Shown here: positions 10,127-28,422 of the stretch, one piece after another
How the letters are laid out: each line of letters starts with the position of its first letter
Numbering within the stretch: position 1 is the first letter of the stretch
Source of the DNA: Anaeromyxobacter sp. Fw109-5
GTDB lineage: Bacteria; Myxococcota; Myxococcia; Myxococcales; Anaeromyxobacteraceae
NCBI RefSeq assembly: GCF_000017505.1
Contig: NC_009675.1
Location: 4,654,501-4,718,500, forward strand
Reading direction: 5' to 3'
Length of the DNA: 64,000 nucleotides
Position numbers and translations under genes: made by a program
Notes under the pieces: model-generated
Seen by the model: the letters and a program-made list of their open reading frames with translations, nothing else
The model's database searches: none
Told to the model about the DNA's origin: nothing

Positions 10127-13100
10127 GCTCGAGCACGCCGAGTTCCAGCGGGCAGCTGTTCAGCTCATCGCCGAGCGCCTCCTCGATCCGAAAGGACCGA
10201 GGCGCTTTCTACTCGCCGACGAGGTAGGGCTCGGCAAGACCATCGTGGCAAGCGGTGTCGTTCACGAGTTGCTGCGGCGTCGTCCTCGGAGCGAACTCGA
10301 TGTCGTGTACTTGTGCTCGAACGCGGAGATCGCTGAGCAGAATCGCGTGCGGCTCGACCCGAACGCAGGGCGCGCGATCCGGCGGGTTACAGAGCTCGCG
10401 TACCGGGCAGCGACCGCTCCCGGCGAGCGGGACGAGACGGCCGCGCGCAAACGGCTGCGACTGTACTCCTTCACTCCCGGGACTTCCCTCAGTGGCGGAA
10501 CAGGCCTCGCATGGGAGCGCCGGCTTCTCCTCTACCTCGTTTTCCGGGTGCTCCGTCAGGACGTTCGCTCGCCGGTATGGCGGGAATTCTTCCGCTGCGG
10601 CGCCGGCGTGGAGAACTGGATGCGCGACACGCGCTTCCGAGCTCTGTCGGTGGAGTTCAAGCGCAAGGTGTCACGAGATGTCCAGCGACTCGTTGGGGAG
10701 GAATGGCGGAAGCCCATCACCGTAGACGGAGGGGAGCTCGTCCCGGCTCGCGCTCTCGCGGAAGAGGTGGCTCGCTACCGTGACGAACCGAAGGCGCGTC
10801 GGCGGCGCAACCAGCTCGTGGCAGCGCTACGGATCGGAGTGCAACGCGTTGCGCTCGATGACCTCCGGCCCGAGCTCGTCATCCTTGATGAGGTCCAGCG
10901 CTTTCGCTCAGTGATCGACGACGCGGCCAACCTCAATTCGATCGCGGCTCGGCTGTTCCAGAACGGGGCCGCCGTCCTCATCCTGTCCGCAACTCCATAC
11001 AAGATGCTTTCGCTCGAGCACGAGGGCGCCGACCATTACCGGGAATTCCTCGACACGGTTTCCTTTCTGTACGGGACCCGCGGCCCCGCGGAGGTTCGCG
11101 AGCTCGAGGCTGACCTGGAACAGTTCCGGAAAAGACTCGAGAGCGGAGCCTTCGTTCAGGGGCACGACCCCGAGCTGCTCCGGCTCAGGATCGCAATCGA
11201 GCGGCGCCTCCGGAAAGTAATCTCGCGAACCGAGCGCAACTGGTACATTGAGGAGTTGCACAAGGGAGTCGAGGAGGTCAGGCCCGATGGGGCCGCGTTC
11301 GCGGTCCCCACAGCCGAGGAGCTCACGGATTTCGTTCGACTCCGGCGCTACCTACTCGACAAGGTCCAGACGACTCAGCACATCACCGAGTACTGGAAGT
11401 CCTGCCCGGCCCCGTTCACGTTCATGGACGCGCAGTACGTGGCCATGAAGGGGGCGCGAGGTTGCGCGAAGCCGGTCCCCGAGCGGCTGGTGGCCCCGGA
11501 ACGCGAGCTCCCGCGCCTTTCCGAGCGGAGCCTCCGGTTTCGCCTCTTGTTCGAAACGATCTTCGGAGAGCCGAAGTCGCGTTGGAAGTACCTGTGGACG
11601 CGCCCGACATACACGTACTATCGGGATGCCTTTTTCGGCGATGCCGACCCGCGCAAGGTGCTCGCCTTTTCGGGTTGGCGGTTTGTTCCCAAGGCGATCG
11701 CGCTACTTGCTAGCAATGAGGCCGAGCAACGCATTCGTCAGCACTCGCGGTGTTGGACCGACGTGGATCCGGGTGCGCTGCGGTTCACGGAGAAGGGGTC
11801 CTTCTTCGTCTTCGACGTGTGCTTCCCTTCCCCGGTGCTGGCGCAGCTCGTCGATCCGGCCGCCCTTGCGAAGGAGGGACTGACGGCAGCGCAGGTGGTT
11901 CGGCGCGCCGAAGCGGCGCTCGAGCAGACACTCCGCCAGGCTGGGGGGCAGGTCGCAGAGACGAGCGGCTCAGCGCCGTGGCAGGTGGTGGCCCGGCTCG
12001 AGCGCGCGCACGGAAGAGCCACCTTTGATGCGCTTCGGGCGTCCGTTGGCAGGCGCTCGGGCGACATCACCGAGCGGTTCGGTGAGCACGTCGATGGGTT
12101 CACATCGTGGGCCGAAGGGGACGAGCCGTTGCGGGTCTCCCGCGACCGCCTCCGCCACCTCGCGGAGATCGCCGCCTTCTCGCCGGCGGTTTCGCTGCTG
12201 CGCGCGATCTGGTCCGTGCGCCCAGAAGAGCGGGGAACGGTGGCAGCGGCGGTCGTGGACCTGTGCTTCGGCGCGCTCCGCAGCTACTTCAACAAGCGGC
12301 CCGTCCGCGCAATTATCGAGGACGCCAGCCGCGGAAGGACGTACGCGCGCGCCGTCGTCCACTACTGCGGGTTGGCACACTTTCAGGCTGTCGTCGACGA
12401 GTACCTGTACCTCGCCAAGAATGTCCTCCAGCGAGCCACCACGGAGGACCTCGCGAGCCACGTCGGGCGCGTGCTCGGAATCGGAACCGGGTCTCCGACC
12501 ATCAACGTCACGCGGCGCGTCCACGGCGCGCTCCGGTTCCACGACAAGCCGCACGTGCTCAGGTCGCATTTCGCCCTAGCATTCGGCGATGACGTGCACG
12601 GCGAGGCGGGATCAACCGACGACCAGACCACCGAGAGCCGCAAGACGGCCATCCGCGAAGCCTTCAACTCGCCATTTTGGCCGTTCGTCCTGGCCACCAC
12701 CTCGGCAGGTCAGGAAGGGCTCGACTTCCACCTCTTCTGCCGGGACATCGTCCACTGGAATCTCCCGTCCAACCCGGTCGACCTCGAGCAGCGGGAGGGG
12801 CGCATTAACCGGCGCGACGGGCTCGCTCTGCGCCGGTCGATTGCGCAGGACTGGCCGCTGGACCGTGTTGCGGCGCTCGCGCCGGATGCGGGGGAGAACC
12901 TGTGGGGCCGTGTTTTCCGCTCTATTGCCCAGCAGCCGGGCCCCCAGCGCTTCAAGCACGGGCTGTTTCCGCATTGGGTGTACGACGCGGCGGACGGGCG
13001 TTCCAAGCGGATCCGGCGGCATCTGTTCTTCTACGACAACAGCAACGACGCCGCCCGATACGCGGAGCTTAAGGAGCGGCTTGCGCTGTACCGCCTCGTA

Positions 13101-13583
13101 TTCGGGCAGCCGCGCCAGCAGGATCTTCTCGATCGAATCCAGCAGCAGATCGCGGCCGATGCAGACCTCGATCGGATTCACCGTGAGCTGACGCGGTACA
13201 TGATCAATCTCTCGCCGATGCGGGAAAAGGCGGCGCACGAACGGGCGCGACAGGAGGCGCTCGCGCTCCTTGGGCGGCCCGCGTCACTCGAGGAGCTCGT
13301 TGCGCATGTCGAGCGTCTCGAGACAGAGCGCGGAGCCGAGCTGGAGGACGTCCGTATCCACATCGCGAGCCTAAAGAACGTGGTCCGGAGCTATCTCGCT
13401 GGAATCCAGCAGTCACGGCACTCAGTCGAATCCGCCGTGTACGCGCTGAGCTACCTGCGCGATCCGTACGATGTCATCTTCGACGCGCACATGGGGCTTG
13501 GCCTCGAGGACGACTGCAAGTTGCTGCTCGCGGTAGCGCAGCGAATCTTCGGGAGAACGCATCCGGGCGAGAGACAGGCATGA
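10119..13583 (+). CDS. SNF2-like superfamily-2 helicase
   Basis: 1154 residues from a TTG at 10119, with a strong ribosome site (GGAGG six to eight bases upstream) inside the end of the PLD gene. Motif I is ADEVGLGKTIVASG at residues ~33-46, the Walker B variant is LDEVQRF near 256 (DEVQ rather than DEAH), and motif III is LSATPYKM near 289. The C-terminal RecA-like lobe has GQEGLDFHLFCRDIVHWNLP and VDLEQREGRINR around 865-900. A ~500-residue insert separates the lobes. The protein closes the three-gene plus-strand operon and runs convergently into the next gene 14 bases away. Likely the motor of an uncharacterised DUF6361/PLD/helicase defence unit. Confidence 0.85.
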   Translation: MAELEHAEFQRAAVQLIAERLLDPKGPRRFLLADEVGLGKTIVASGVVHELLRRRPRSELDVVYLCSNAEIAEQNRVRLDPNAGRAIRRVTELAYRAATAPGERDETAARKRLRLYSFTPGTSLSGGTGLAWERRLLLYLVFRVLRQDVRSPVWREFFRCGAGVENWMRDTRFRALSVEFKRKVSRDVQRLVGEEWRKPITVDGGELVPARALAEEVARYRDEPKARRRRNQLVAALRIGVQRVALDDLRPELVILDEVQRFRSVIDDAANLNSIAARLFQNGAAVLILSATPYKMLSLEHEGADHYREFLDTVSFLYGTRGPAEVRELEADLEQFRKRLESGAFVQGHDPELLRLRIAIERRLRKVISRTERNWYIEELHKGVEEVRPDGAAFAVPTAEELTDFVRLRRYLLDKVQTTQHITEYWKSCPAPFTFMDAQYVAMKGARGCAKPVPERLVAPERELPRLSERSLRFRLLFETIFGEPKSRWKYLWTRPTYTYYRDAFFGDADPRKVLAFSGWRFVPKAIALLASNEAEQRIRQHSRCWTDVDPGALRFTEKGSFFVFDVCFPSPVLAQLVDPAALAKEGLTAAQVVRRAEAALEQTLRQAGGQVAETSGSAPWQVVARLERAHGRATFDALRASVGRRSGDITERFGEHVDGFTSWAEGDEPLRVSRDRLRHLAEIAAFSPAVSLLRAIWSVRPEERGTVAAAVVDLCFGALRSYFNKRPVRAIIEDASRGRTYARAVVHYCGLAHFQAVVDEYLYLAKNVLQRATTEDLASHVGRVLGIGTGSPTINVTRRVHGALRFHDKPHVLRSHFALAFGDDVHGEAGSTDDQTTESRKTAIREAFNSPFWPFVLATTSAGQEGLDFHLFCRDIVHWNLPSNPVDLEQREGRINRRDGLALRRSIAQDWPLDRVAALAPDAGENLWGRVFRSIAQQPGPQRFKHGLFPHWVYDAADGRSKRIRRHLFFYDNSNDAARYAELKERLALYRLVFGQPRQQDLLDRIQQQIAADADLDRIHRELTRYMINLSPMREKAAHERARQEALALLGRPASLEELVAHVERLETERGAELEDVRIHIASLKNVVRSYLAGIQQSRHSVESAVYALSYLRDPYDVIFDAHMGLGLEDDCKLLLAVAQRIFGRTHPGERQA

Positions 13584-13597
13584 ACTGGATAGGCGGC

Positions 13598-16500
13598 TCA
13601 CACCAACATCAACGCCCACCCCGTATCGATCCACCTCGTCGATCCCTTCGGCGTTCCCTCGAGGTAGCGCACCCGGTTCACGCGAGCCTCGTCGAGCACG
13701 CCGCCGTTCGCCGCGACATCGTCCTTCGCGACGAGGCACCACGCGACGTCGGTGAGCGACACCGTTCGCTCGGCGAACCCGCCCTCTCCGCCGTCGATGC
13801 GCAGACCGCCCTTTGGCGCGAGGCCGAGGACGCGCATGCGCCTGCCGTTGCGCTCGAGCCAGCCGTCCCGTTTGCGCGACTCCGCGAGCGCCGCCTCGAC
13901 GCACGAGGCGGCGCGCTCCAGCGCACCCGCGGGCAGCCGCCGCGACGCACTGCGGCCGGCGCCCAGCGCACGCCAGGCCTCGAAGTGCACGTCCGGAATG
14001 GCCCACGCGGTCTCGGCGTCGTTCCACCGCCCGACACCGAGGTAGCGCCAGGAGTCCGCGTCGACTCGCCCCAGCACGAACGCCGTCTCGCCGGGCCTGC
14101 GGTCCGGGACCCGGACGGCGACGCGGTCGGGTGCAGCCAGCGAGCCGGTGCCCTCCGCAACGACGAACAGGTGCCCCTCGACGCGCCCGGTGCGTGGCTC
14201 GCCGTCGATGCCGAACCACTTCCGCAGCTCGGCGGGTCCGAGCTTCTCGCCGACGGGCGGCGCAAGCGACTCCGGCCGCACGGTCTCGACGAGGCGTGCG
14301 ACCGGCGTTGTCTCCGCCGTCGCGTCGAATGACTCCGCCGCGGAATTGTCGGACCGCAGCCGCCAGCGGCCATCCTCCTGGACGACGCGCTTCACCTGGT
14401 AAGCATGGTCCCCGCCGATGCCGGTCTGGAGCAGCGCGATTCGGCCCTCCATCGCACCCAGGCCCACGCCACGCGCGAGCCGGAACACGAGCCAGTCGCC
14501 GTCGTGGATTGGGTTCGAGCCGCCGTCCATCGAGTCGCCCGCCGCGCGCACCGCGAACAGGTCGGCACCCGTCGCGTTCACGGGTAGGCGCACCTCCTCG
14601 GCCTCGGGCGCGCTCGCTATCGCGCCGTCCGCCGCCCCCGCAGCGGCGCGCAGCGTCGGGAACGCGACCACGTTGCCTCGGCGCGGCAACTCGATAACTT
14701 GCCCCGCCGGCTCCACCCACCAGCCGTCCGGCGACCTGTAGAACCGGACGCGGAATGCCGTCCCGGGTCTGCCCGCCGAAGGTCCGAACCAGCGGCGCAT
14801 CAGGTCGGGCAGCTCGTTGCGATCGGAGCCGACCGGGCGCGCCACGTTGCAGAACTCGCGCATGAGCCGGAATCGCCACGGCCGGCCATCCTGCACGCGA
14901 ACTTCGAGCTCTCCTGAGGGCACGTCGGGGCGCGCGGTCCGCGACGGGAGCTTCAGAATCGGATCGCGCTTGTTCCACAGGACCTTGCACTCGAACGCAT
15001 CGCCGGCGGCCTCGGCCTCCCCGCGGCGGCGGTACTGCGCAAGGCGATAGTCGACGATCTCGCGCGTCATCTCCGCAAACGTGTCGTCGAGGCCTGCGGG
15101 AATCGGCAGGCGCGATACGAACCGCTCGCTCTCCACTCGGAACCAGCGCCCGGCCCGGTCGGCGGTCCCGGCCCACGCGGCGATCGGGTTCTTGCGCCAG
15201 TATGCGCGCCACTCCGGCGAACCGCCGTCCTCGGCCTCTTTGACGCCTTCCACATCTCGGACCAGCTCGGGAGAGCGCGCGAGCACCTCGTGGCTGCGCC
15301 GCGCGAGGTCGGCGAGCGGCATGCCGTCGCGCAGCGCCTCCGCCTCGACGAGCACCTCGAGTGTCACCATTTTGAAGCACTTCGTCATCGCGGTGGTCTC
15401 GAGCTCGCGGAACCAGTCGCGCGCGGCCTCGAGCGTGCGCGCCTCGTCAGCGGTGAGGTGACCCTCCCCCGCGACGAACTCGAACCAGCTGCTGTGCGCC
15501 GTCCTCAGCGTGCCCGGCGCATAACCCATGCGGAAGAGCTCGCCGATGGTCGGCCGTTCACCCCGCGCCGCAAAGAGTTCGCGATAGACGCGCTGCACCT
15601 CGCTGCCGCCGGTCGGGAGGAGTTTCCTGAGAAGCTCCACCGCCTCGAGCTCCACGTCCACCGAACATCCCGTCGGCAGTTCGGCAGCGCCCGTCTCGAG
15701 GAATGCCGCCAGCCCCACCTTGGCATCCGTGAAGGACAGGAGCGTCCGGACGTGGTCCAGGAACACGCGGTGGTTCCCGACGAAGTCGATGACGATGAGC
15801 TCGTTCTTGCCTTCGGCGACGCGGAGCCCGCGGCCGAGCTGCTGTAGGAAGACCACCGGCGACTCGGTCGGCCGCAGCATGACGACGCGGTCCACCAACG
15901 GGACGTCGACGCCCTCGTTGAAGAGGTCCACGGCGCAAACCGCGTCGAGCTCGCCGGCGGCGAGCTTGCGCAGCGCCTCCTCGCGATCCGCGGACCCGGG
16001 CTGCGAGTGGACGGCGACAACCCGCACGCCGCGCGCGGCGAGCCACTGCTGGACGTACTCGACGTGCGCAATCGACGCGCAGAACACGAGCGAGCGCGTC
16101 CCGCTGTGCTCGCCCCATGCATCCCAGAGCCGCTCCATACGGCGGTCGGTCTGGACCGCCGTCGCGAGCGCCTCCGAATCGAACCGCCGGTTTCTCCAGG
16201 GGATGTTCGCGTAATCGACGACGTCCTTCAGGCCGAAGTACGAGAAGGGCACGAGCCGCCCGGTCACGATTCCGACATCGAGACCGGCACGGAACGCGAG
16301 GTGGTCGTCGAAGAGCCCGAGGACATCGCCCTCGTCGGCGCGGTCCGGCGTCGCCGTGAGCCCGAGCAGGAATCCAGGGTTCAGGCGGGCGAGAATTCGC
16401 CGGTAGCTCGCCGCGTCGGCGTGGTGGACCTCGTCGACGACGACGTAGTCGAAGCGGTGCGATGCGAGTCCGTCGAGGTGTTCGGCGCGCGACAGTTTCT

Positions 16501-17783
16501 GAACGGACGCAAGGACGAGGTCGGCGTCGAGCTCCGAACGGTCCTCGGCGAACCAGCCGATGCGGAGTTCCGGGATGCGCCGCCGCAGAACCCGCCGGAA
16601 CGTCTCGGCCGCTTGCGCGAGCAGCTCGCGGCGGTGCGCGAGAAAGAGGACGCGGATCGGCGCCCCACGTTCGAGGAGAAACGCCTCGGCATCGAGCGCA
16701 GCGAACAACGTCTTGCCGAGGCCCGTCGCCATCACGACCAGCGCGCGCCGGTGCTGCTCCGCGCGGCTCGCCGCGAGCGCTGCCAGGGCGTCCTGCTGCA
16801 CCTCGTGCGGCTCGGGTGGTGCGGGCAACGCCTCGTCGTCGGACTCGCCGGGCGGCGGAGGCAGAGCCGTCTTGCGCGCGCGAGCGGCGTAGCTGGCGAC
16901 CCAGTCCAGGGTGAGGGCTCGCGCTCTGGCCCACAGCGCCTCGAACTCGTTCTTCGTCCGGTCGTACGCGGCGGGGTCGGTCGCGCGGTCGACGCGCAGG
17001 TTCCATTCGACGCCGCTCACGAGTGCGGACTCGGAGACGTTCGAAGACCCGACGAACGCGACCGCAACCCGCGGTCCCTCGAACTGCCACGATTTCGGAT
17101 GGAACGAGCGCGTACGCCCCGGCAGCCGCTCGCACTCGATGATGCGCGCCTGGAACCCCGGTGCGTGCGCGCCTTCCCAGTCGAGCATTCGGCTCAACGC
17201 CTCCGCCTGGGTGATCGCGAGGTAGTCGCCGGTGACGAACCGAACGCGCGAGCCGCGGGCGATCGCCGACGAGATGAGGTCGTGGAGCCGATCAAGACCG
17301 CTGTCCTGCACGAAGGCGGCGACGACCGCGACGTCGGTTGCTCGCGCGAACAGCGGTGTGAGGTGCGCAAGAAACGGGTCCGCCTCGCTCCCGACGGCGA
17401 GCGGCGCGATGGCTTCCTTCCGGTAGTTCCCCTTCCACGGGATGACGTGCCGCACGCCGCCGCGGGGACCGTCCATGTCACCGCGGTATCGCGGGATGAC
17501 GTGGACGTGCAGGTGCATCACCGTCTGGCCCGCCGCCTCGCCGGCGTTGAAGCCGACGTTATAGCCGTCGGGACGAGGGTCCTGCGCGTCGAGGTCGCGC
17601 TTCACGACCTCGACGAGGGTCGAGAATCGCCTCCTGCTCCTCACGCGTTGCCTCGAACCAGGTCGCAACAGGGCGCTTCGTGATGACGAGTGTGTGCCCC
17701 GGGGAGACCGGGAACGCGTCGCGGATCGCGAAGGCGAGCGAGTTGGCAGCGACGCGCAGAGCTGAGTCGAACGGGGAGGTCAT
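13598..17783 (-). CDS. HIT-PLD-helicase-S24 peptidase fusion, frameshifted in the HIT domain
   Basis: The main open frame encodes 1356 residues (17668 to 13598). It contains the HIT triad MHLHVHVIP (51-59), a PLD half-site HPKSWQF (190) with GSSNVSES, helicase motifs TGLGKT (315-320) and DEVHH (412-416), then QQLGRGLRV (motif VI), a DUF3427-like region, and an S24/LexA-type module with GDSMDGG near 1046 and a downstream YQVKRV (Ser-Lys dyad). The HIT N-terminus (MTSPFDSAL to EEQEAILD) lies in another frame starting at an ATG at 17783. An extra G in the GGG at 17618-17620 breaks the join: removing it restores ILDLVEVVKRDLDAQ. The gene is either damaged or the base is a sequencing error. Convergent with the helicase at 10119. 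Confidence 0.8.
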
Positions 17784-17966: not shown

Positions 17967-18361
17967 ATGCGTTCGCCTCCGCTCAGCTTTGGCGTCGACG
18001 GCTGCAAGGGCGGGTGGATCGCGGCCAACGCCTCGGACCTCTCGAGCACGCCTCGATTCGTCCTCTTCGAGCGGTTCTCGGACCTTGCCGCCGCCGTGAG
18101 CGACACGGGCACCCTCGCGCTCGTCGACATTCCGATCGAACTCACAGACGGAGCCCGCGCCTGCGACGGCGCGGCCCGGAAGCTCCTCGGCCTACGCCGA
18201 GCGTGCAGCGTCTTCACACCGCCGTGATGACCCCAACGCTGCAGCGGCACGTGCGTGAGGCGCATCCCGAGTGCGCCTTCGCCGCCCTGAACCCTAATGG
18301 AACGGGTCTTGCGGAGAAGACGTCCTCCAACGGAAGGCGGCGCCAGGCCGCCGCTACTTGA
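17967..18361 (+). pseudogene. DUF429 predicted nuclease, internally deleted and frameshifted
   Basis: An ATG at 17967 with GGGAG upstream opens a frame typical of DUF429: FGVDGCKGGWIAA, then LVDIPIELTD, CDGAARKLLGLRR and SVFTPP, stopping at 18227. The expected later block, QRHVREAHPECAFAALN, follows at once in another frame (18228-18361). Intact family members have a longer middle, so roughly 50 residues appear deleted between the two pieces and the ends are out of frame. The gene therefore looks dead. It sits between the giant helicase fusion and the TIR/QueC operon, with its 3' end overlapping the last gene of that operon by a few bases. Confidence 0.7.
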
Positions 18362-18830
18362 GAGCATCAGCAAGCTTCGACCACGGCACCACGGCAATAC
18401 GATTCTCCGTCACCGCGGCCGGCAACTGCCTAGGGGCCCGCTTTCCAACATGCACGGCCACAACCTTCTTGCCACGCTCGAGACTTTCCCGAATTTCCCA
18501 GTCGACCCACCTACTGCGATGCGTTGCTGAGGAGACGAAGACAACAGTCACAGAGGACTGCGCGATCCGCTCACCGATCTTTTGGCGAATATAATCTGCA
18601 CGCGAACTATCAAACGGCTCCTGGACAGACCAATCGTTAAACTCTATATCCGATCGCTCGCTCTGCGCTTGCCCCCGCAGCAAGTTCACCTCATTGATGT
18701 CTTCGTACGCAAAGCTCAAAAACACGTTGCGCCGCGCGGTCTCTGCTCGTCGCAATTCCTCTCGAGCCTTGTCCACGAGGGGCCTGATGTCGCCCAGTGT
18801 CGAACGACCTGAACCACCACCACCGCCCAT
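18354..18830 (-). CDS. Small ThsB-like TIR protein with poly-glycine N-terminus
   Basis: 158 residues from the ATG at 18830, preceded by GAGAGGGG eight bases upstream and placed two bases after the QueC stop. The protein begins MGGGGGSGRSTLGD, then a short charged helix (15-32). A TIR fold of the ThsB/DUF1863 type follows: VFLSFAYED (36-44), then SSVTVVFVSSATHRSRWVDW and EIRESLERG with a candidate catalytic Glu at 112. By family it could cleave NAD or make a cyclic-ADPR-like signal. The last gene of the TIR-TGT/OGG/QueC operon. The glycine run at the very N-terminus is unusual for TIR proteins and could serve as a conjugation acceptor (inference). Confidence 0.82.
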   Translation of the reverse strand: MGGGGGSGRSTLGDIRPLVDKAREELRRAETARRNVFLSFAYEDINEVNLLRGQAQSERSDIEFNDWSVQEPFDSSRADYIRQKIGERIAQSSVTVVFVSSATHRSRWVDWEIRESLERGKKVVAVHVGKRAPRQLPAAVTENRIAVVPWSKLADALK

Positions 18831-18832
18831 AT

Positions 18833-19420
18833 CTACCCCTCTCTCGGATACTGGCGGCACGCCACGCATGCGCCGCATGGCGTAGCCGTACCGGCATGAC
18901 AGGAGTGAGCGCCCACGACATTGTACTCTTGCGCGAGGCGAAGTACGTCCACCTTAGAGAAGTGCATCATGGGCGCGAGAACAACGAACGGCACCCCCAT
19001 GCAGTTACTGATCAGGTGCTCGGCCTCTTGCACGAAGGATCGTGTCTGGTCAGGGAACAAGGCGTAGCGCTCATCGAGAAGTCCGATCGCGACGGCACGG
19101 GCACTTCGCTTGTAAGCATATGCTGCCGCAGTAAGAAGAAACAGCAGGTTGCGCCCGGGCAAAAACGCATCGTCGAACAGGCGCATACTCTTGTCCGTGA
19201 GCCCCGATGGAATCAGTCGGCCGTACCCAGGGAGTTTGGCAACCGCGGGCCGAGGAAGCTGATGAGCCCTAAACACACGACGGCACGCTGTTAACTCAGC
19301 GGATCGACTGCGTTGCCCGTAATCGATGAACAGGGGGTGCTGCTCAAGCCCCTCTTCCCGAATAAGAATCGACATCACTGCGGAGTCCAGCCCACCGGAC
19401 ACCAACGGAACCACGCTCAC
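18833..19420 (-). CDS. QueC-like (Cap9-type) 7-cyano-7-deazaguanine synthase family
   Basis: 195 residues from a GTG at 19420 that overlaps the glycosylase stop (GTGA). QueC hallmarks are visible: PP-loop SGGLDSA (8-14) for ATP, FIDYGQRS (31-38), FLPGRN (86-91), and a C-terminal Cys cluster at 174, 182, 185 and 188 (CGACVAC) that would bind zinc. Housekeeping QueC converts carboxy-deazaguanine to preQ0 and is around 230 residues; this copy is shorter and sits among TIR, TGT-like and glycosylase genes. That matches Cap9 of type IV CBASS and the QueC of other defence systems rather than a queuosine pathway gene. No queD, queE or queF is nearby. Confidence 0.85.
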   Translation of the reverse strand: MSVVPLVSGGLDSAVMSILIREEGLEQHPLFIDYGQRSRSAELTACRRVFRAHQLPRPAVAKLPGYGRLIPSGLTDKSMRLFDDAFLPGRNLLFLLTAAAYAYKRSARAVAIGLLDERYALFPDQTRSFVQEAEHLISNCMGVPFVVLAPMMHFSKVDVLRLAQEYNVVGAHSCHAGTATPCGACVACRQYPREG

Positions 19421-20109
19421 GACATGCTCTCGGAACGGGCCGCGGTCATCACAATCCACACGGCCCAATCTAGGTACCCGATGGGCCACCCAATCGTTGC
19501 GGCGTAACTGCGCAGAGACCGCTCAAGCTCGAGGTACTTGCGGTAGGTCAGGACAGCATCGAGCGGGTGCGCTGTAACCCTCAGCGCATTACTGTACCGC
19601 AGCAGATGGCGATCCAATATGGCGAGCTCGAACGAAGCCCCAATGTTCCGCAGGAACATGCTCGCCTGCTTAGGGCCAAACCCGCTAACCTGGTGCATTA
19701 CGCAGCTACGGCGCACTTCGGGTTCTTCCTTCGACTCGAGGAGACCACGCAAGCCGTCGGCTCGTGCTGCGATGCGACGGAACGTAGTAGCGAGCTGTTC
19801 CGCTCGCGTTCGCGGAAAGCGATACCGGCGCGCTCGTCCGTTCAGACAAATCGGCTCAGTGAGCGCTCGCTCCAGAAGCCGTTCGTAGTCGCGCTGGCGC
19901 GGCTCCAAAAGGGACCGCTCGAGCAGCCGGGTCGCAGCGGCATCCGCCAGCGCGTAAGGCACTTGACTGCTAAGGACGCACCGGGCGAGTTCAAGACGAA
20001 GGTCGGACTCACCCCACATATCGCGAGGCCGCCTGCGGACCCGAGTCTCGATGTCCGGGCAGATCGCAAGAACAGCGCGTTCAAGTGACATGGCTAGCAC
20101 GGACCTCAC
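19417..20109 (-). CDS. Ogg2-like HhH-GPD N-glycosylase/DNA lyase (Cap11-type)
   Basis: 230 residues from a GTG at 20109 that overlaps the TIR-TGT stop (GTGA), with GGAGG seven bases upstream. The helix-hairpin-helix is VSGFGPKQASMFLRNIG at 141-157, with the expected catalytic Lys at 147, and the catalytic Asp lies in AILDRHLLR (D166). This is the Ogg2/AGOG-like arrangement used to excise 8-oxoguanine. In type IV CBASS the OGG-like protein is Cap11. Position between a TGT-like and a QueC-like gene suggests it recognises a modified guanine, perhaps a deazaguanine, in nucleic acid or in a conjugate. That is inference; the fold and residues are seen. Confidence 0.83.
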   Translation of the reverse strand: MRSVLAMSLERAVLAICPDIETRVRRRPRDMWGESDLRLELARCVLSSQVPYALADAAATRLLERSLLEPRQRDYERLLERALTEPICLNGRARRYRFPRTRAEQLATTFRRIAARADGLRGLLESKEEPEVRRSCVMHQVSGFGPKQASMFLRNIGASFELAILDRHLLRYSNALRVTAHPLDAVLTYRKYLELERSLRSYAATIGWPIGYLDWAVWIVMTAARSESMS

Positions 20110-21542
20110 TTGAACACCTCCGGTAGCGCCGCAGCAATTTTATCGACGCTCTTCGGCAGGCGCGCGGCGAGGAACCTAGTAAGACTGCCATCCCTCCTGC
20201 GCTGTTGCAATTCTTGCTCCCACACGGAGCAAAATTCGAGATTGTGGAATACCACCTTGGCCGGATACGTAACGTCCGGCGTCGCGACAGCTGCCCGTAT
20301 TATGCTTGCCAACTTCGGGTCCGGCGTCAGCAGCCCAGTTTGGAAATCAACAAAGTCATAGTGCTGTGGGTGGTGAAGCGAGGCCGATTGATGGTCTGCG
20401 ACCGTACGGCACCACTCCAAGCCATCGAACACGTCTGCGCCTGCGGCCGAGAGCACCGCCATCGAGATGGGATTCCCGGTCCCAAGAAGATGAATTGGTT
20501 GGTAGCGAGACAACTCCGACAGACGCCGGCGGATGCTCGCAACAGCGCGCGCACGCTCGATGATTCCGTTCCCCAACTCGCGCTCGGGAATGGCAATCAG
20601 AGGCGGGGACAGTTTCTGGGCGATCTTTGCGAACACCTCTGGAAGCAGGTCCGAAGCGAACCCGCCTTCGCCATCACGTGGCGCATGAACGATTGGGCAG
20701 ACGAGCGGGATCTGCGTAGACCTGCGATCGCGCTCAACCCTGCGCACCACGTCGTCGATCAACGCCTGCTGTGTCTCAGGAGGCTTCAAGTTGTCAAATG
20801 ACAGCGCCAAGTCGCATGGAGCAGTAGAGGCAATCGCTGAATAGGAGGCCGCTCCCCACTTCTGATCGCGTCGCCGAGACGCCTCGTAATTGCCGGAGTC
20901 AAGCACGACAAGACTGCCCCCCCGAAGCAAGTTGCGCGTCTCACGGACCATCGCGCTGGCCGTCCTGTCATGCGCAAGATCATAAGCGGATATGAGAACC
21001 GACGGCGTCCGCAGTAGAGCAAGGGCCTTCAGCGAGGCATCCGGGCGAAGAAGCGTCTCGAAAGACGATACCGATCTGAGAAAACACGGCAATCGAATTA
21101 ACTTCTTACCAACGGTTAGCTGCGTAACTTCAGCCGGGTGGGGCTTGTTTTGCGGGCGCACCTTTGCCTCCAATGCGCGCACGAGCCGTCGCAGGCCTAT
21201 GTGTCCGTCCTCTCCGTGCCACCCGCGGAGATCTTGGGTATGCAACCGGCCGAACCCAATGGGCAGCGTGCACCCATCCACGCGCACCGGGAATAGCGGC
21301 ACATTGGCTTCGCTCGCGTAACGGGCCTCGTCCAGCACCCAGACCTTGTCCCTTGAGTGCTTCGACCACACGGGGACCACGGCTTTCGCCGAGGACAACG
21401 TGCGCTCGATCTCAGCCGGGAAGTCTCCCTGATCGATACGGTCGTCCCACCATACCGACCAGCCGCGGGCACTAAGAGCTCTGTCCAGGAGCTCAACTGT
21501 GTCGCGGTCTTCTCGGGAATAGAGTATGGCGACGTCGACCAT
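20106..21542 (-). CDS. TIR domain fused to a TGT-like (Cap10/DpdA-like) domain
   Basis: 478 residues from the ATG at 21542; there is no strong ribosome site, but the TIR domain begins immediately. Residues 1-~125 are a TIR domain: VDVAILYSREDRD, GWSVWWDDR, and VLDEARYA with the catalytic-position Glu at 72. Residues ~145-440 resemble tRNA-guanine transglycosylase: LVVLDSGNYE (211-220, like DSGGFQ) and LLGTGNPISMAVLSAAGADVF followed by DGLEWCR, keeping the nucleophile-position Asp (373). The C-terminal CxCxxC zinc site of true TGTs is absent, as expected for a remodelled paralogue. The first gene of the four-gene operon. Inferred role: binds a deazaguanine donor and partner protein, with an attached NADase. 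Confidence 0.82.
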   Translation of the reverse strand: MVDVAILYSREDRDTVELLDRALSARGWSVWWDDRIDQGDFPAEIERTLSSAKAVVPVWSKHSRDKVWVLDEARYASEANVPLFPVRVDGCTLPIGFGRLHTQDLRGWHGEDGHIGLRRLVRALEAKVRPQNKPHPAEVTQLTVGKKLIRLPCFLRSVSSFETLLRPDASLKALALLRTPSVLISAYDLAHDRTASAMVRETRNLLRGGSLVVLDSGNYEASRRRDQKWGAASYSAIASTAPCDLALSFDNLKPPETQQALIDDVVRRVERDRRSTQIPLVCPIVHAPRDGEGGFASDLLPEVFAKIAQKLSPPLIAIPERELGNGIIERARAVASIRRRLSELSRYQPIHLLGTGNPISMAVLSAAGADVFDGLEWCRTVADHQSASLHHPQHYDFVDFQTGLLTPDPKLASIIRAAVATPDVTYPAKVVFHNLEFCSVWEQELQQRRRDGSLTRFLAARLPKSVDKIAAALPEVFK

Positions 21543-22019: not shown

Positions 22020-24413
22020 TCACAGCGTCGCCGTGTCGATGATCTCGACGTCGCCCGCTCCTCGATCGCACCAATCGCGGATCGCATCGGCGGCTCCGCC
22101 AGCGCCGCCGTCCGGGTTGCCGTCCCAGACGGCGATTAGGCTCGGTTTCGAGTCGAGTAGCTGCGCCTTCTCGACCGCGGCGTTCTGCACAGCGAGGTTG
22201 CACGCGGCATAGGCGCGGGGGTGCTCCGCCTCGGGCGGAGGCATGTTTGCGAGCACGGAGACGTTGACGCGCGGATCCGTGCTCGCCGCGCGGGTGAGGA
22301 GGTCGTCGAACCGAGCGATCCAACGAGGGTCCGCGGGGGTCTCGACCGAGGTTATCCGGAAGAGAGTGGGGGCGAACGGCAGGAACAGCCGGACCCGGCC
22401 ACCGCGCGCCAGGACCTCCTCCGCGAACAGGATGTCGGAGCCGCGCGCCGCGCTGCTGAAGCCGAAACCGATGCGATGCTGGTCGAGCAACGCGCGGATC
22501 CGCGCGCGCAGAGCGCCGACCTTGGCCTCCGGAAGACGCGGCGTCGGCCGGCCTGGGAGGTCAGTCATGTGTCCAGTGAACGCGGCGACGCACGGGACCT
22601 GGAGCGACGCGTCGACCCCGTCCTCCGGCAGCCCGAGGTATCGGAGGTTCCGGCGCGCCTGGTTTCGCATCCTCGCGATGTCTTGCGTGGCTAGCGGGTT
22701 GGCACTGGCGGCGAGCGCGTAGAAGCGCCGGGCGCCGTCGAGGTCACCGCCAAGGAGCAGAACCTCGGCCCTCGTGGCGAGCTGCCAGTGGTCATCCGTC
22801 TCCTCCGTGATCGGCTCAGTCTTCGCGCGCACCGCGGTAGCGACTGCCGCGAGCTGCGCGCCGTCCTTCGCTCCGAGGAGGTGAGGCGCGTGTTTGCGGA
22901 GGTACAGCCCCATCGCGAGGACGTTGATTCCGGGGTACGTGTCGCCGCTGCGCTCGTATGCGGTTCGGTAGATACGGTAGGCCTTATGCAAGTACTTGGC
23001 GTCGCCACGTTCGATCCACAGGTCTTTGTAGCGGCCGCCGAGAATGCCCCCGGTCTCGGCGTCGAGCTGGCCACTTGAGACCAGCGGTTCGAGCTCGGTG
23101 ATCGCCGCCTCGTTCCACCCGGACTTCGACAGGGCGAGCGCACGTAGCTGGCGCGCACGGGTTCCTTGTCCCGCCCCTTTCAGCATCTCAACCGCTGCTC
23201 GCGGCTCGCCGATCGAGATGAGCGCCTGCGCCGCGGTCAGCGTGCTCTCCTCCGGATCGCGCGCGCTCGCCTCGATTCGGCTCCAGGGCGTGGTGGGTCC
23301 GCTCGGGGCCACCGGCGGCCTCGGCACAGCCGCTCGGACGGGGTTTTCGCCGATCGCAGCGACGATCCTCTCGAGTTGTTCGGCCGGAGCGATCGAAGCT
23401 CCGGCGCAGTCGAGCCACACCTTCGAGGCGAGCATTGGCGGCAACTCGACATCGTCCAGGCGAACAGGGATGACGGGGGTGCGGCTATCGACTGCTCGGT
23501 GCAGGAGGACGGTCATCTCCTGCTGGCACCAGGGCGACTCGACCCATTTGCGACTGACGAGGATGATTGCCGCCGCGCTCGCGGCGATGGCGTTCTGCAG
23601 CGACACCGCGAGCTCGTCCCCGGGTAGCACCTCGCGCTGGTCGATGTAGATGCTGAATCCGCGCGCCTCAAGGCGCTCAACGAGGTCCAGCGCGAAGCCC
23701 CGGTCCGTCGACCGGTAGCTGACGAAGGCGTGATAGGCCCGATGCCCCAAGGCGGGTGGCGTAGCGTGCGGCGGGGGGACGGCGGCGGCCGCGAGCGGTA
23801 CGGGCCGGCCGATCGCATCGAGCAGGCGGATTACGCCCGCGGCCGGACAGGCGAACACCTCGCCAAAGGCGGCACGTTGCGGGAAGTCCGGGTCGGGTCG
23901 CACCGAGGCGATGTGTCCCGCTACGGCTTGGCCGATCACGACCGGGCTACCCGAGAGGCCGTGGATGGGGGTCGACATCCCGGCCGCGATCTTCTCGGAC
24001 GTGAGCACGATCACGTACCGTCCCGACTTGACGCCCTTTGCGTCATCGACGACGCCGGCGAAGTGCGTGCCGTCCGCCTTGGTCACCGCCGGGTATCCAA
24101 ACGTGAACCATGCGCTCCGAGGCGGGAGGGGGGCGGCCGACAGTTGCAGCGGGACGCGGTCCGTCATCGGCTCGTCCAGGCGTAGGACGGCACAGTCCTC
24201 TGCTGGATCCGTGCGCGCCACGCGCGCCGTGCGCGCAACCTCTGGCAGGGGGTACCCGAAGGTGAGCGTGACCGCGTCGCCCTCGCGCGCTCCCGGCACG
24301 ACGTGCTCGCACGTGGCGACGAGGTCGGACGCGACGAGGTATCCCGTCCCGACGGTTGCTCCCGACCTCACCAGCGCGCATGCGCGCTTCAACGCCTGCT
24401 GAACATCTTCCAT
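22020..24413 (-). CDS. Trypsin-like protease - TIR - TPR - SLOG-like protein
   Basis: 797 residues from the ATG at 24413 (GGGGACGG upstream). The N-terminal serine protease has His in TCEHVV (37), Asp in AEDCAVLRL (73) and Ser in GLSGSP (154). A TIR domain follows at 225-350: YHAFVSYRSTDRGFALDLVE, then GFSIYIDQREVLPGDE, and SPWCQQEM with Glu at 299. A helical TPR-like region of the DUF4071/TRAFs-binding sort spans ~390-590. The C-terminal ~190 residues (AFTGHMTDLPGRP, GFGFSSAARGSDILFAEEVL) look like a SLOG/Rossmann nucleotide-binding module. Protease-sensor plus TIR architecture suggests activation by proteolysis or ligand sensing. Coupled to the phosphoesterase 20 bases upstream. Confidence 0.82.
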   Translation of the reverse strand: MEDVQQALKRACALVRSGATVGTGYLVASDLVATCEHVVPGAREGDAVTLTFGYPLPEVARTARVARTDPAEDCAVLRLDEPMTDRVPLQLSAAPLPPRSAWFTFGYPAVTKADGTHFAGVVDDAKGVKSGRYVIVLTSEKIAAGMSTPIHGLSGSPVVIGQAVAGHIASVRPDPDFPQRAAFGEVFACPAAGVIRLLDAIGRPVPLAAAAVPPPHATPPALGHRAYHAFVSYRSTDRGFALDLVERLEARGFSIYIDQREVLPGDELAVSLQNAIAASAAAIILVSRKWVESPWCQQEMTVLLHRAVDSRTPVIPVRLDDVELPPMLASKVWLDCAGASIAPAEQLERIVAAIGENPVRAAVPRPPVAPSGPTTPWSRIEASARDPEESTLTAAQALISIGEPRAAVEMLKGAGQGTRARQLRALALSKSGWNEAAITELEPLVSSGQLDAETGGILGGRYKDLWIERGDAKYLHKAYRIYRTAYERSGDTYPGINVLAMGLYLRKHAPHLLGAKDGAQLAAVATAVRAKTEPITEETDDHWQLATRAEVLLLGGDLDGARRFYALAASANPLATQDIARMRNQARRNLRYLGLPEDGVDASLQVPCVAAFTGHMTDLPGRPTPRLPEAKVGALRARIRALLDQHRIGFGFSSAARGSDILFAEEVLARGGRVRLFLPFAPTLFRITSVETPADPRWIARFDDLLTRAASTDPRVNVSVLANMPPPEAEHPRAYAACNLAVQNAAVEKAQLLDSKPSLIAVWDGNPDGGAGGAADAIRDWCDRGAGDVEIIDTATL

Positions 24414-24433: not shown

Positions 24434-25825
24434 TCAAGAAAAGTTCTTCACGCCGAGCCGTTCGATGACGCCCGCGGTGGTGATCGGCTCGACATTCGCG
24501 GGGCCGTCGAAGAACAGGACGTCGTTCGCGGCGATCCTCCCGTCCGGCTCGAGATCCACGCGCACGAACGTCGGCACCATCCGGCGGTAGCGATCGATCC
24601 GGTTATGCTCCAGCTCGTCGAGCCAGGTGCGCAGCGCGCGCTGCCCTGCGGCGGCGTCCCCCTCGTACACGATGTCCGGGATGCGCATCACGTCGGCCCA
24701 CGTGCCGGAGTTCAGGTACGTGGCCCCATTCGGCAGCGCGATGCGCTTCGCAAGATGGGTGTGCCCGAACACGACGACCTCGAACCCGCGGCTCGCCAGG
24801 GCGTTCGCGGCATCGAGGTACTGGGTCGACTCGTCGTCGATCGCGAAACTGATTCGATCCTTCTCGCGCCAGTTCCGAAACGCGCGCAGGAGCAGCTCGA
24901 TTTTCACGTCGCGCATGAAGCCGATGTTCCCGTCGGATGCTGCCGCTGCCTCGGTTGACAGCTCGTCGGCAAGGCGCATGCCCTCGTCCTCGCTAGGAGG
25001 CAACGCCGGGCCGGGCGCCGCCGCGACTTGCGCGGCGACGTAGCCGCTGTCCGCGGCGGGGCCCGCCGCGCGGAGATGCACACTCCTGTTGGCGGCCGCA
25101 GCGGCGTCGCGCACGAACCGGGCTGTCATCTTCCAGAGGCCGGGGTTCAGCACCGCCAGGATCGGCGCGACTGCGGACGTCTCCGGCTTCAGCAGGTCGA
25201 CGAACGCGTAGGTCGCCTTAATTGGGTTCATTACGCGCGCGACCATTTCGCTTCCCGGCTGGGCGGGAAACGCCTGGGGCGGCTGCGCGCGTGACAAGGC
25301 GGAGCGCACACGGCGCAGCGCATCATGGTCGACCACGTTCCAGCCGTCGTAGCGGTTCCCATGCTCGACGAGCAGCTTGCCGAGCCGAAACGCCTCGTTA
25401 TCATGGAGAAACGCGATACGGCCGCCCTCGGGCGCGACCTCGCTCAGCAGTCGCGCGCGGACGCGAGGCAGCGACAGCTCGATGTCGTGATTGCCGAGCG
25501 CAAGCGTCAGTGCGCCCTTGGATGCGACGAACCGGGCGAGTGCTACCCAGAACTCTCGGGTCGCCCCGAGGATCTGCTCGAGCTTGCGGACGGCGTCGTC
25601 TTCGCTGGCGGTGAAAGCGGACCACTTCCCGTCCGCGTCCTTCTCCGCGAGGAAATCCACCGTATCCCCGTTCAGCACGAGGTGGACGTCGCGCCCGGGC
25701 GTGCGCTGCTGTGCGATCCAGTCCACGAGCGCGGAGAGGCGTTTCACTGCGTCGCTCGAGCACATGCGGAAGCCTTCCGCGCCTCCGAAGTGCAGGTCGG
25801 AGATCACGAACACACTGGTCGTCAT
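24434..25825 (-). CDS. Calcineurin-like metallophosphoesterase
   Basis: 463 residues from the ATG at 25825; frame upstream of this is open but not protein-like. Metal-binding motifs are complete: SDLHFGG (9-15), NGDTVDF (52-58), GNHDIE (111-116) and, near the C-terminal third, FGHTHLAKR. A long, alanine-rich insert lies between the GNHD and GHTH parts. The family hydrolyses phosphomono- or diesters, including cyclic nucleotides. It precedes the protease-TIR-SLOG gene by 20 bases in the same operon, so it may degrade or process that protein's nucleotide ligand. A diverged copy of its C-terminal tail occurs at 28946-29085 on the other strand. Confidence 0.85.
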   Translation of the reverse strand: MTTSVFVISDLHFGGAEGFRMCSSDAVKRLSALVDWIAQQRTPGRDVHLVLNGDTVDFLAEKDADGKWSAFTASEDDAVRKLEQILGATREFWVALARFVASKGALTLALGNHDIELSLPRVRARLLSEVAPEGGRIAFLHDNEAFRLGKLLVEHGNRYDGWNVVDHDALRRVRSALSRAQPPQAFPAQPGSEMVARVMNPIKATYAFVDLLKPETSAVAPILAVLNPGLWKMTARFVRDAAAAANRSVHLRAAGPAADSGYVAAQVAAAPGPALPPSEDEGMRLADELSTEAAAASDGNIGFMRDVKIELLLRAFRNWREKDRISFAIDDESTQYLDAANALASRGFEVVVFGHTHLAKRIALPNGATYLNSGTWADVMRIPDIVYEGDAAAGQRALRTWLDELEHNRIDRYRRMVPTFVRVDLEPDGRIAANDVLFFDGPANVEPITTAGVIERLGVKNFS

Positions 25826-26115
25826 CAGGCCATTGCAGTAGGAGCGCTCTGAACTGGCAACGCCGGACCCGCGACGGGGCCCTAGAGGGGGCCCCTTTTC
25901 GGGCGAGACCGGCGCCAGTGCTCCCGGGGGCGCCGGGGACGCGAGGTCCGAGGCCATCCTGGCCATGCAGGACCGTTCCCATGAGCGCCTGACCCGCGCG
26001 GCAGACACAGCGTACGTCGTTCAGTTGACGCGCGCGCCCGAACCGGAGGAAATCGCACACTTGCTGTCGCCCGACTTCGATGCAGTTCGGGTGCCGCATC
26101 AACTCGGGAGCGGGG

Positions 26116-26697
26116 ATGGCGCTACTTTCGGAGCGCGCGCTGCGCGCCAGGGCATCAGGGTTCACCAAAATTGCTGAGGGTAACCTCAAGAAGTCACTAA
26201 GGGATCACGCGGCGAGCGGTGCCGAGTTCGACGTGTTCCTGTCCCACAGCGCGCTCGATCAAGACGTGGTCCGAGGCCTTTGGCGTTCTCTCGAAGAGGA
26301 CTTCGGGTTCGCGGTGTACGTGGACTGGATCGTCGATCCCGACCTCGATCGCACGAAGGTTAATGCGACCACTGCGGAGCGGCTCCGGGCACGTCTGCTG
26401 CAGTCGAAGGCGCTCCTTTACGCCTCGTCCGTAAACTCCACGGAATCCAAGTGGATGCCCTGGGAACTCGGCTTCTTTGACGGGCTTCGGTCCCGTGCAG
26501 CCGTCCTCCCGGTCTCAAAGACTCCGCAGCCGGACTCTGCCCACAAGGGGATCGAGTATCTGGGCCTTTACCCGTACGTCAGCGAGGAGAGGATCAAAGG
26601 ATCCGACAACACCACGCTTTGGGTGAATGCAAACAAGACGACCTACACGACCCTGCGGCAGTGGGTCGCAGGGCAGGATCCGATTCCGGTGGAGTAG
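26116..26697 (+). CDS. Stand-alone TIR domain protein
   Basis: 193 residues from the ATG at 26116 with GGGAG nine bases upstream; an earlier start in the same frame is less well placed. After a helical N-terminus, the TIR domain spans ~36-150: AEFDVFLSHSALDQDVVRGL, DFGFAVYVDWIVDPDLDR, then SKWMPWELGFFDGLRS with Glu at 117 in the NADase position. The C-terminal ~45 residues (GIEYLGLYPYVSEER, WVNANKTTYTTLRQW) are typical of bacterial single-domain TIR proteins. The gene is divergent from the phosphoesterase, 290 bases away, and has no obvious partner downstream because the next locus is decayed. Confidence 0.82.
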   Translation: MALLSERALRARASGFTKIAEGNLKKSLRDHAASGAEFDVFLSHSALDQDVVRGLWRSLEEDFGFAVYVDWIVDPDLDRTKVNATTAERLRARLLQSKALLYASSVNSTESKWMPWELGFFDGLRSRAAVLPVSKTPQPDSAHKGIEYLGLYPYVSEERIKGSDNTTLWVNANKTTYTTLRQWVAGQDPIPVE

Positions 26698-27585: not shown

Positions 27586-27588
27586 TTG

Positions 27589-28422
27589 ATGGCTAGTCCG
27601 AAGACGCCCGAACACTACCTCACGAGGTTGACCACACAGCTCGAGAAGCTGGGGCTCAGTGTCCAGCGCGAACCGGCGCTCGGCGGAATGGTGCCCGATC
27701 TCGCATTCCGGACTGAGGACGGCAAGCTCGGAGTCATCGAGTTCAAGAACTGGGAACCGACCGTCGACACTTCTGCGCGAGCTCTACACCTCACCCAGGC
27801 CTACCGGGAACTGGCGGGTGCGGATAGCGCCGTCGTGATCGTTCCGCGCGACGTGAAGATCGGCACACCCGGGCTTGTCGGCCCCGGAGCCGTGAATGAT
27901 TGGCTCGTGAAGTTCGTGGAAGAGGCTACCGCGACTACGCGCGCTCCGACCGCCCGCGACTACCGGACGGGCGCGCGCGTTGCTCCGTCCGACAGGCCGA
28001 TCGGGCGTCCACGGGTCGCCGCGGCGGCGGCCAAGAAGGTGCTCGCGATCATGCCGTTCGAGAAGAAGTATGACGACACGTACCTCGTCGCGATGGCGCC
28101 GGCGGCGAAGGCGATCGGGACGGGGTGCCGGCGCGTCGACAAGGAGGATTACGTCGGCGACGTGATGAAGCGCGTCGAGGAACGCATCCGCTCTGCCGCG
28201 GCCGTCATCGCAGACCTTTCGGAATCGCGCCCCAACGTCCTTTATGAGCTGGGCTTCGCGCACGGCGCAGGCGTGAAGGCGGTCTTAATTTGCAGCACGC
28301 CCATCGGTAAACTTCCTTTCGATGTCCGCAACCAGAACGTGATCGAGTACCGCAGGGGGCAAACGTTCGAACTACAGGAGAAGCTCCGAGCTCGGCTAAT
28401 TGCCGTGCTCTCGGAACGATAA
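27589..28422 (+). CDS. PD-(D/E)xK nuclease fused to deoxyribosyltransferase/TIR-like domain
   Basis: 277 residues from the ATG at 27589 with GGAG upstream. Residues ~5-115 look like a restriction-endonuclease fold: MVPDLAF (Asp 37) and GVIEFKNWEP (Glu 51, Lys 53). Residues ~150-260 match the nucleoside 2-deoxyribosyltransferase/TIR-like class: VLAIMPFEKKYDDTYL, then AAAVIADLSESRPNVLYELG with the catalytic-position Glu at 220, and FAHGAGVKAVLIC. The C-terminal domain would bind or hydrolyse a nucleotide; the N-terminal domain would cut nucleic acid. The architecture suits a nucleotide-activated nuclease effector, but no signal-producing cyclase is seen next to it. Confidence 0.78.
   Translation: MASPKTPEHYLTRLTTQLEKLGLSVQREPALGGMVPDLAFRTEDGKLGVIEFKNWEPTVDTSARALHLTQAYRELAGADSAVVIVPRDVKIGTPGLVGPGAVNDWLVKFVEEATATTRAPTARDYRTGARVAPSDRPIGRPRVAAAAAKKVLAIMPFEKKYDDTYLVAMAPAAKAIGTGCRRVDKEDYVGDVMKRVEERIRSAAAVIADLSESRPNVLYELGFAHGAGVKAVLICSTPIGKLPFDVRNQNVIEYRRGQTFELQEKLRARLIAVLSER

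Follow-up and report, generated by a model that had tools for sequence, protein, structure and literature searches.

An operon with a glycine-tagged TIR protein and no CD-NTase in Anaeromyxobacter: a likely relative of type IV CBASS immunity

A four-gene operon of Anaeromyxobacter sp. Fw109-5 is described here that most likely represents a cyclase-free relative of the type IV cyclic oligonucleotide-based antiphage signalling systems (CBASS), in which a ThsB-type TIR enzyme takes the place of the cGAS/DncV-like nucleotidyltransferase (CD-NTase); we give this reading a probability of roughly two in three. The operon lies on the minus strand of a stretch of 64,000 nucleotides (contig NC_009675.1, positions 4,654,501 to 4,718,500), hereafter designated as the window, and encodes a fusion of a TIR domain to a tRNA-guanine transglycosylase (TGT), an Ogg2-like HhH-GPD glycosylase/lyase (OGG), a QueC-like PP-loop enzyme and a small ThsB-type TIR protein. 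Type IV CBASS comprises a QueC (Cap9), a TGT (Cap10), an OGG (Cap11), the CD-NTase CdnD and a two-transmembrane (2TM) effector. Gene content and order, a Gly-rich tag on the small TIR protein, conserved active sites, a Cap10-like fold and the absence of a cyclase were all observed. All four minus-strand open reading frames (ORFs) were verified at the coordinates of Table 1, as were the junctions given by an original prediction made from this DNA, with GTGA overlaps between TIR-TGT and OGG and between OGG and QueC, and a 2-base gap between QueC and the small TIR gene; the four protein identities that it had assigned were borne out by Pfam and PADLOC matches.

The small TIR protein matches the Pfam family ThsB_TIR (PF08937, 9.4e-27), its fold resembles those of a Bacillus cereus TIR and ThsB, with ThsB structures among the best folds, and its catalytic-type Glu is invariant among relatives. 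It begins with MGGGGGSGR, a start supported by the strong Shine-Dalgarno sequence GAGAGGGG that precedes this ATG by 5 bases, and residues 1-11, which include the tail, are modelled as disordered (predicted local distance difference test score (pLDDT) <50). A Met-Gly-Gly start within a Gly-rich stretch occurs in 81 of the 82 small TIRs encoded directly after QueC, and likewise in two further TIRs from operons with a broken QueC ORF, versus none of the 27 other TIR genes of the same loci (30 listed, minus these two operon TIRs and one operon-TIR fragment). As background, any start codon followed by two Gly codons was found in 16 of 506 genes. The tag tracks QueC linkage, not TIR ancestry. Type IV CBASS CD-NTases start with MGGSGGGFFSNSDI, MGGGGGGGGYI, MGGSGGGFFGGSS (twice), MGGSGGWYNW, MSGGGWYYW and, once, MASS. 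In published work, Cap9 conjugates 7-carboxy-7-deazaguanine (CDG) to the CD-NTase at its N-terminal Gly, and the modified tail is bound by Cap10, both Cap9 and Cap10 being essential for defence (PMC11996544, PMC13279940); the CD-NTase motif modified by Cap9 is MGGS (PMC13279940). The Gly start of the small TIR corresponds to this known deazaguanylation motif, and its modification is predicted by analogy. The proposal that 7-deazaguanine chemistry would act on a TIR enzyme and not on a cyclase is supported by the distribution of the tag.

The four genes are associated well beyond the window. When a TIR-TGT alignment was run against 85,000 genomes, 80 loci were obtained, and in the final set of 85 loci with this TGT, which includes the window and plasmid loci, 75 displayed contiguous TGT, OGG, QueC and small TIR genes in this order. 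The conserved loci span about 15 phyla, including one archaeal metagenome-assembled genome, and relatives with 52-57% QueC identity and the same four-gene order were identified on Rhizobium, Agrobacterium and Neorhizobium plasmids. A chance neighbourhood was ruled out by the 75 loci with conserved order; co-occurrence in other genomes, on which the original prediction depended, was thus found. About half of the relatives are TIR-TGT fusions and about half encode the TGT alone. A PfkB-like gene is directly upstream of most fusions (37/43 loci), TPR-S genes are near the fusion in 37 of 43 loci, and 2TM SLATT/DUF4231 proteins are encoded in 57 of 84 loci (24/43 with the fusion, 33/41 with the TGT only), often directly upstream of the TGT. 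The view that TIR domains replace the CD-NTase at both ends of the operon was only partly upheld: since the TGT has a TIR in only about half of the relatives, the small TIR is the constant replacement.

A very different explanation is that the small TIR belongs to a self-contained Thoeris-like or TIR-SLATT system, the base-metabolism genes being merely co-localised. The protein is indeed ThsB-type, and two-gene TIR-SLATT pairs without QueC do exist on viral contigs (L183, 6004-6396; L184, 6022-6423), where they may represent minimal TIR signal-effector modules. Yet the TIRs of these pairs have no MGG tag, their fold beginning at once, whereas QueC-linked TIRs carry it, and the overlapping or nearly abutting genes keep a fixed order in 75 of the 85 loci; this explanation is therefore considered highly improbable. 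In phage records, the small TIR was found in none, and a single-sequence scan of viral contigs gave no match; two scans of viral contigs with alignments revealed one contig with a complete system and another with a tagged TIR. The complete system (L181/L187) is carried by a viral, probably proviral, contig of 82.7 kb and comprises PfkB, TIR-TGT, OGG, QueC, a tagged TIR, SLATT, TIR and TPR-S genes.

A CD-NTase was absent, as the original prediction had stated for the operon and its surroundings. PF18144 (SMODS) had no match anywhere in the Anaeromyxobacter genome; it likewise had none in 41 of 51 host genomes, the matches in the other ten being outside the fetched operon neighbourhoods, and none of 84 loci was hit by a profile built on the CD-NTases of type IV CBASS. 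A hidden or nearby CD-NTase was ruled out by these searches, including in homologous operons, where its presence would have spoken against the prediction. In a separate survey of evenly drawn genomes with a mixed Cap10/TGT profile, which shares some loci with the 85,000-genome scan and is not fully independent of it, the strong hits were all of the TIR-TGT type in Pseudomonadota (5/5), two TIR and two CD-NTase in Bacteroidota, and one TIR (the centre genome) and four CD-NTase in Bacillota. The CD-NTase loci of this survey were ordered QueC-TGT-CdnD-2TM, with OGG next where found. A TGT and a QueC of the same kind thus have either a TIR or a CD-NTase as their partner, depending on the locus. 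The QueC and TGT trees give no resolution as to whether the TIR or the CD-NTase version arose first.

The TIR-TGT fusion was recognised by Pfam TIR_2 (4.6e-21), by Pfam TGT below its cut-off (6e-4) and by the PADLOC model of the type IV CBASS TGT (3.1e-23), and the Glu of the fused TIR (E72) is kept in 26 of 27 fusions. Profile comparison gave Cap10 as the best match of the TGT domain (6.9e-20 to 9ntn). In an AlphaFold model of the fusion (pLDDT 94), the TGT domain had as its best Foldseek match the Cap10-CdnD NDG complex 9ntn (7.7e-14), and comparison with 9ntn gave a Z of 27.7 and a root-mean-square deviation of 3.0 over 298 aligned positions, the next family reaching a Z of 23.7. Cap10 and the operon TGT have in common the derived motifs SAYD, DSG(N/G)YE, PE(R/K)ELG and FDGL-W, the counterparts in canonical Tgt being NTYHL, DSGGFQ, GGLSVGE and FDCV-PTR. 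Motifs, profile and predicted fold mark the domain as a remodelled, Cap10-like TGT, predicted to bind the tagged tail.

The OGG matches Pfam Ogg-HhH (2.9e-23); K147 and D166 are invariant in 80 relatives, at the sites of Ogg2 enzymes, and the motif GxGPKQ(A/S)S is present in 76 of the 80. The OGGs of type IV CBASS (L139, L140, L161 and L162), judged by eye, seem to be devoid of the glycosylase Lys (e.g. GPATSYHL). As the TIR-system OGGs keep GxGPKQAS, this difference suggests that the two have different tasks, that of the operon OGG being possibly, by conjecture, the removal or sensing of a modified base. The conserved Lys/Asp active site of a glycosylase that accompanies QueC and TGT, together with both canonical active-site Asp residues retained by the TGT, would also suit a restriction-like system directed at nucleic acids, in which QueC makes a deazaguanine base, the TGT inserts it into RNA or DNA, the OGG removes it and the TIRs, as effectors, sense its loss. 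However, the TGT has neither the canonical PTR after FDC nor GGLSVGE and groups with Cap10, and such a system leaves the MGG tag of QueC-linked TIRs unexplained, which makes it decidedly unlikely.

The QueC-like enzyme was matched by Pfam QueC (2.1e-36) and PADLOC QueC (1.5e-23). An alignment of relatives revealed the conserved motifs SGGxDS, YGQ(x)5E, PxRN and FPDQ and the zinc cysteines C-CxxCxxC. FPDQ is an aromatic-Pro-Asp motif at the base-reading position, at which Cap9 and QueC read the base by Tyr and Asp and QatC differs (PMC13279940). Because the Anaeromyxobacter genome encodes QueD, a canonical QueC and a canonical TGT, in addition to a QueE-like match below its cut-off, CDG should be available in this host. 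QueD was present in 45 of 51 host genomes versus 9 of 14 controls, a weak test of CDG dependence.

Within the favoured reading of a cyclase-free CBASS relative, CDG would be made by the queuosine pathway of the host, and removal of Met from the small TIR would bare Gly2. By analogy with published type IV CBASS work, QueC would then activate CDG with ATP and join it to Gly2, as Cap9 does on the CD-NTase, and the Cap10-like TGT would bind the tagged tail, tethering the small TIR beside the fused TIR in a poised complex. More conjecturally, a phage cue would release or activate this complex, and the TIR enzyme would act on NAD+, either producing a cyclic ADP-ribose-like signal for an effector or depleting NAD+; the effector may be the 2TM SLATT protein in many relatives and the Trypsin-TIR-TPR-S protein beside the window operon. 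The same gene anatomy would fit the opposite logic, in which tagging by QueC would switch the TIR off or serve to gauge the CDG/7-deazaguanine pool and the unmodified TIR would be toxic, to be freed by phages that drain or alter deazaguanine metabolism: the tagged TIR could be sequestered by the TGT domain, and phages with 7-deazaguanine DNA are known (PMC6884629). We regard this as unlikely, since type IV CBASS defence requires the modification and is not inhibited by it (PMC11996544), as is also the case for Gly2 of QatB in qatABCD (PMC13279940), and since some hosts seem to be without QueD and would be put at risk by a toxic TIR left unmodified.

Several observations weigh against the favoured reading. 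In the tree, the operon QueC forms its own clade (98/97), apart from both Cap9 (99/99) and canonical QueC, and it has FPDQ where Cap9 has YxDC. The PADLOC model of the type IV CBASS OGG (Cap11), which gave 6e-71 and 6e-85 for true CBASS loci, had no match to the operon OGG. The likeness to Cap9, Cap10 and Cap11 initially proposed thus holds for the TGT and for the motifs of QueC, but not for its clade or for the OGG. No QueD was seen in 6 of the 51 host genomes, which makes their CDG supply doubtful. The PfkB-like and SLATT genes of most or many relatives are absent at the window locus, and SLATT_1 had no match in the Anaeromyxobacter genome, although the same search matched in no control genome either. 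One small TIR of the 82 (L062) starts with MAGSGGG. Moreover, because Gly-rich tails are of low complexity, a resemblance between the tails of TIR and CD-NTase that goes further than MGG is, taken alone, weak evidence.

Compared with known systems, the operon shares with type IV CBASS a QueC, a TGT and an OGG-type glycosylase in a single operon, the Cap10-like fold and motifs, a partner enzyme that starts with a Gly-rich MGG sequence and, in many relatives, a 2TM SLATT-type effector. It differs in that there is no CD-NTase and the tag is borne by a ThsB-type TIR, in its gene order ((SLATT)-TGT-OGG-QueC-TIR versus QueC-TGT-CdnD-2TM-OGG), in its OGG, which keeps the catalytic Lys and belongs to another subfamily, and in its separate QueC clade. 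Lacking a CD-NTase and having an OGG from a different family, the operon is not a member of type IV CBASS, though by analogy it would work in a like manner. The qatABCD system also combines a QueC-family enzyme with a partner that has an essential N-terminal Gly motif (MGTS of QatB; PMC13279940), but QatC carries large extensions, its base-reading Tyr/Asp is replaced by Thr-Thr, the partners are unrelated, and the operon QueC scored 12.4 bits with the QatC equivalog model, the cut-off of which is 280. With Thoeris, the operon shares a small TIR that belongs to the ThsB_TIR family and has the conserved Glu; unlike Thoeris, it comprises the QueC/TGT/OGG module, and its TIR has a tagged, Gly-rich tail. 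Two genes upstream of the operon were scanned with ThsA models, and neither gave a match. The PfkB-NDT / QueC / HhH cassette (Cluster 4 QueC, PMC13329287) resembles it by its QueC, its HhH glycosylase-like gene and its PfkB-type partner, but is devoid of TIR and TGT, and its QueC is only distantly related; three-gene cassettes of this composition, another pairing of QueC with a glycosylase, were seen on Neotabrizicola and Cupriavidus plasmids (L008 and L009).

Table 1. Features of the operon and of the adjacent upstream gene (window coordinates).
Feature	Position	Strand	Remarks
TIR-TGT fusion	20106..21542	-	478 aa; TIR ~4-120, Cap10-like TGT ~135-474; putative catalytic Glu E72
Ogg2-like HhH-GPD glycosylase/lyase (OGG)	19417..20109	-	230 aa, GTG start, alternative ATG at 20091; catalytic-type Lys147, Asp166
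QueC-like PP-loop enzyme	18833..19420	-	195 aa, GTG start; predicted deazaguanylating ligase (Cap9-like role)
Small ThsB-type TIR protein	18354..18830	-	158 aa; catalytic-type Glu E112 (WVxWE); predicted deazaguanylation substrate
Codons of the Gly-rich tail GGGGGSG (residues 2-8)	18807..18827	-	predicted modification site Gly2
Shine-Dalgarno GAGAGGGG of the small TIR	18836..18843	-	read from the sequence
Trypsin-TIR-TPR-S protein, upstream	22020..24410	-	candidate sensor/effector partner; possible, not certain, operon member

At 60% GC, the operon departs from the window (69%), its third-position GC (about 0.65) is below that of most confident host genes (0.8-0.96), and a comparable TGT was found in no other genome among 194 of the host phylum; on these grounds, the operon looks horizontally acquired. 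No Rfam match for an RNA element was obtained in the operon region. The Trypsin-TIR-TPR-S gene sits 477 bases upstream, its product likely being either a sensor/effector of its own or a partner of the operon. Beyond it lies a dense island of defence-type genes, encoding a Calcineurin-like phosphoesterase (24434-25822, minus strand), a further small TIR_2 protein (26080-26697, plus strand) and a protein that may be nuclease-like at its N-terminus (VIEFKNWEP) and is TPR-S-like at its C-terminus (27586-28422, plus strand). On the other side of the operon, positions 10119-17392 encode two large helicases, one of them containing PLD, ResIII and S24 peptidase domains.

In the texts on QueC-linked immunity that were searched, which largely did not extend to subscription journals, the TIR version is not mentioned, and an earlier description is possible. 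If confirmed, deazaguanylation would here gain a new kind of target, and the cassette would probably be a new immune system. So far, protein deazaguanylation concerns one type of enzyme, the CD-NTase of type IV CBASS, and is suspected for QatB. A tag that follows QueC linkage constitutes a clean natural experiment, in which the function of the tag becomes separable from cyclase chemistry. It is fairly likely that the operon stands for a distinct class of immune system, in which conjugation of a nucleobase to a protein licenses a TIR enzyme; the Gly-rich N-terminal tag would then be a portable element, placed on two unrelated signal-making enzymes (CD-NTase and TIR), and QueC and the Cap10-like TGT would form a general module for the control of bacterial immune enzymes. 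If true, the addition of a catalytic TIR protein as a second target, unrelated to the first, would make this modification a general switch, and CBASS-like and Thoeris-like immunity would be linked.

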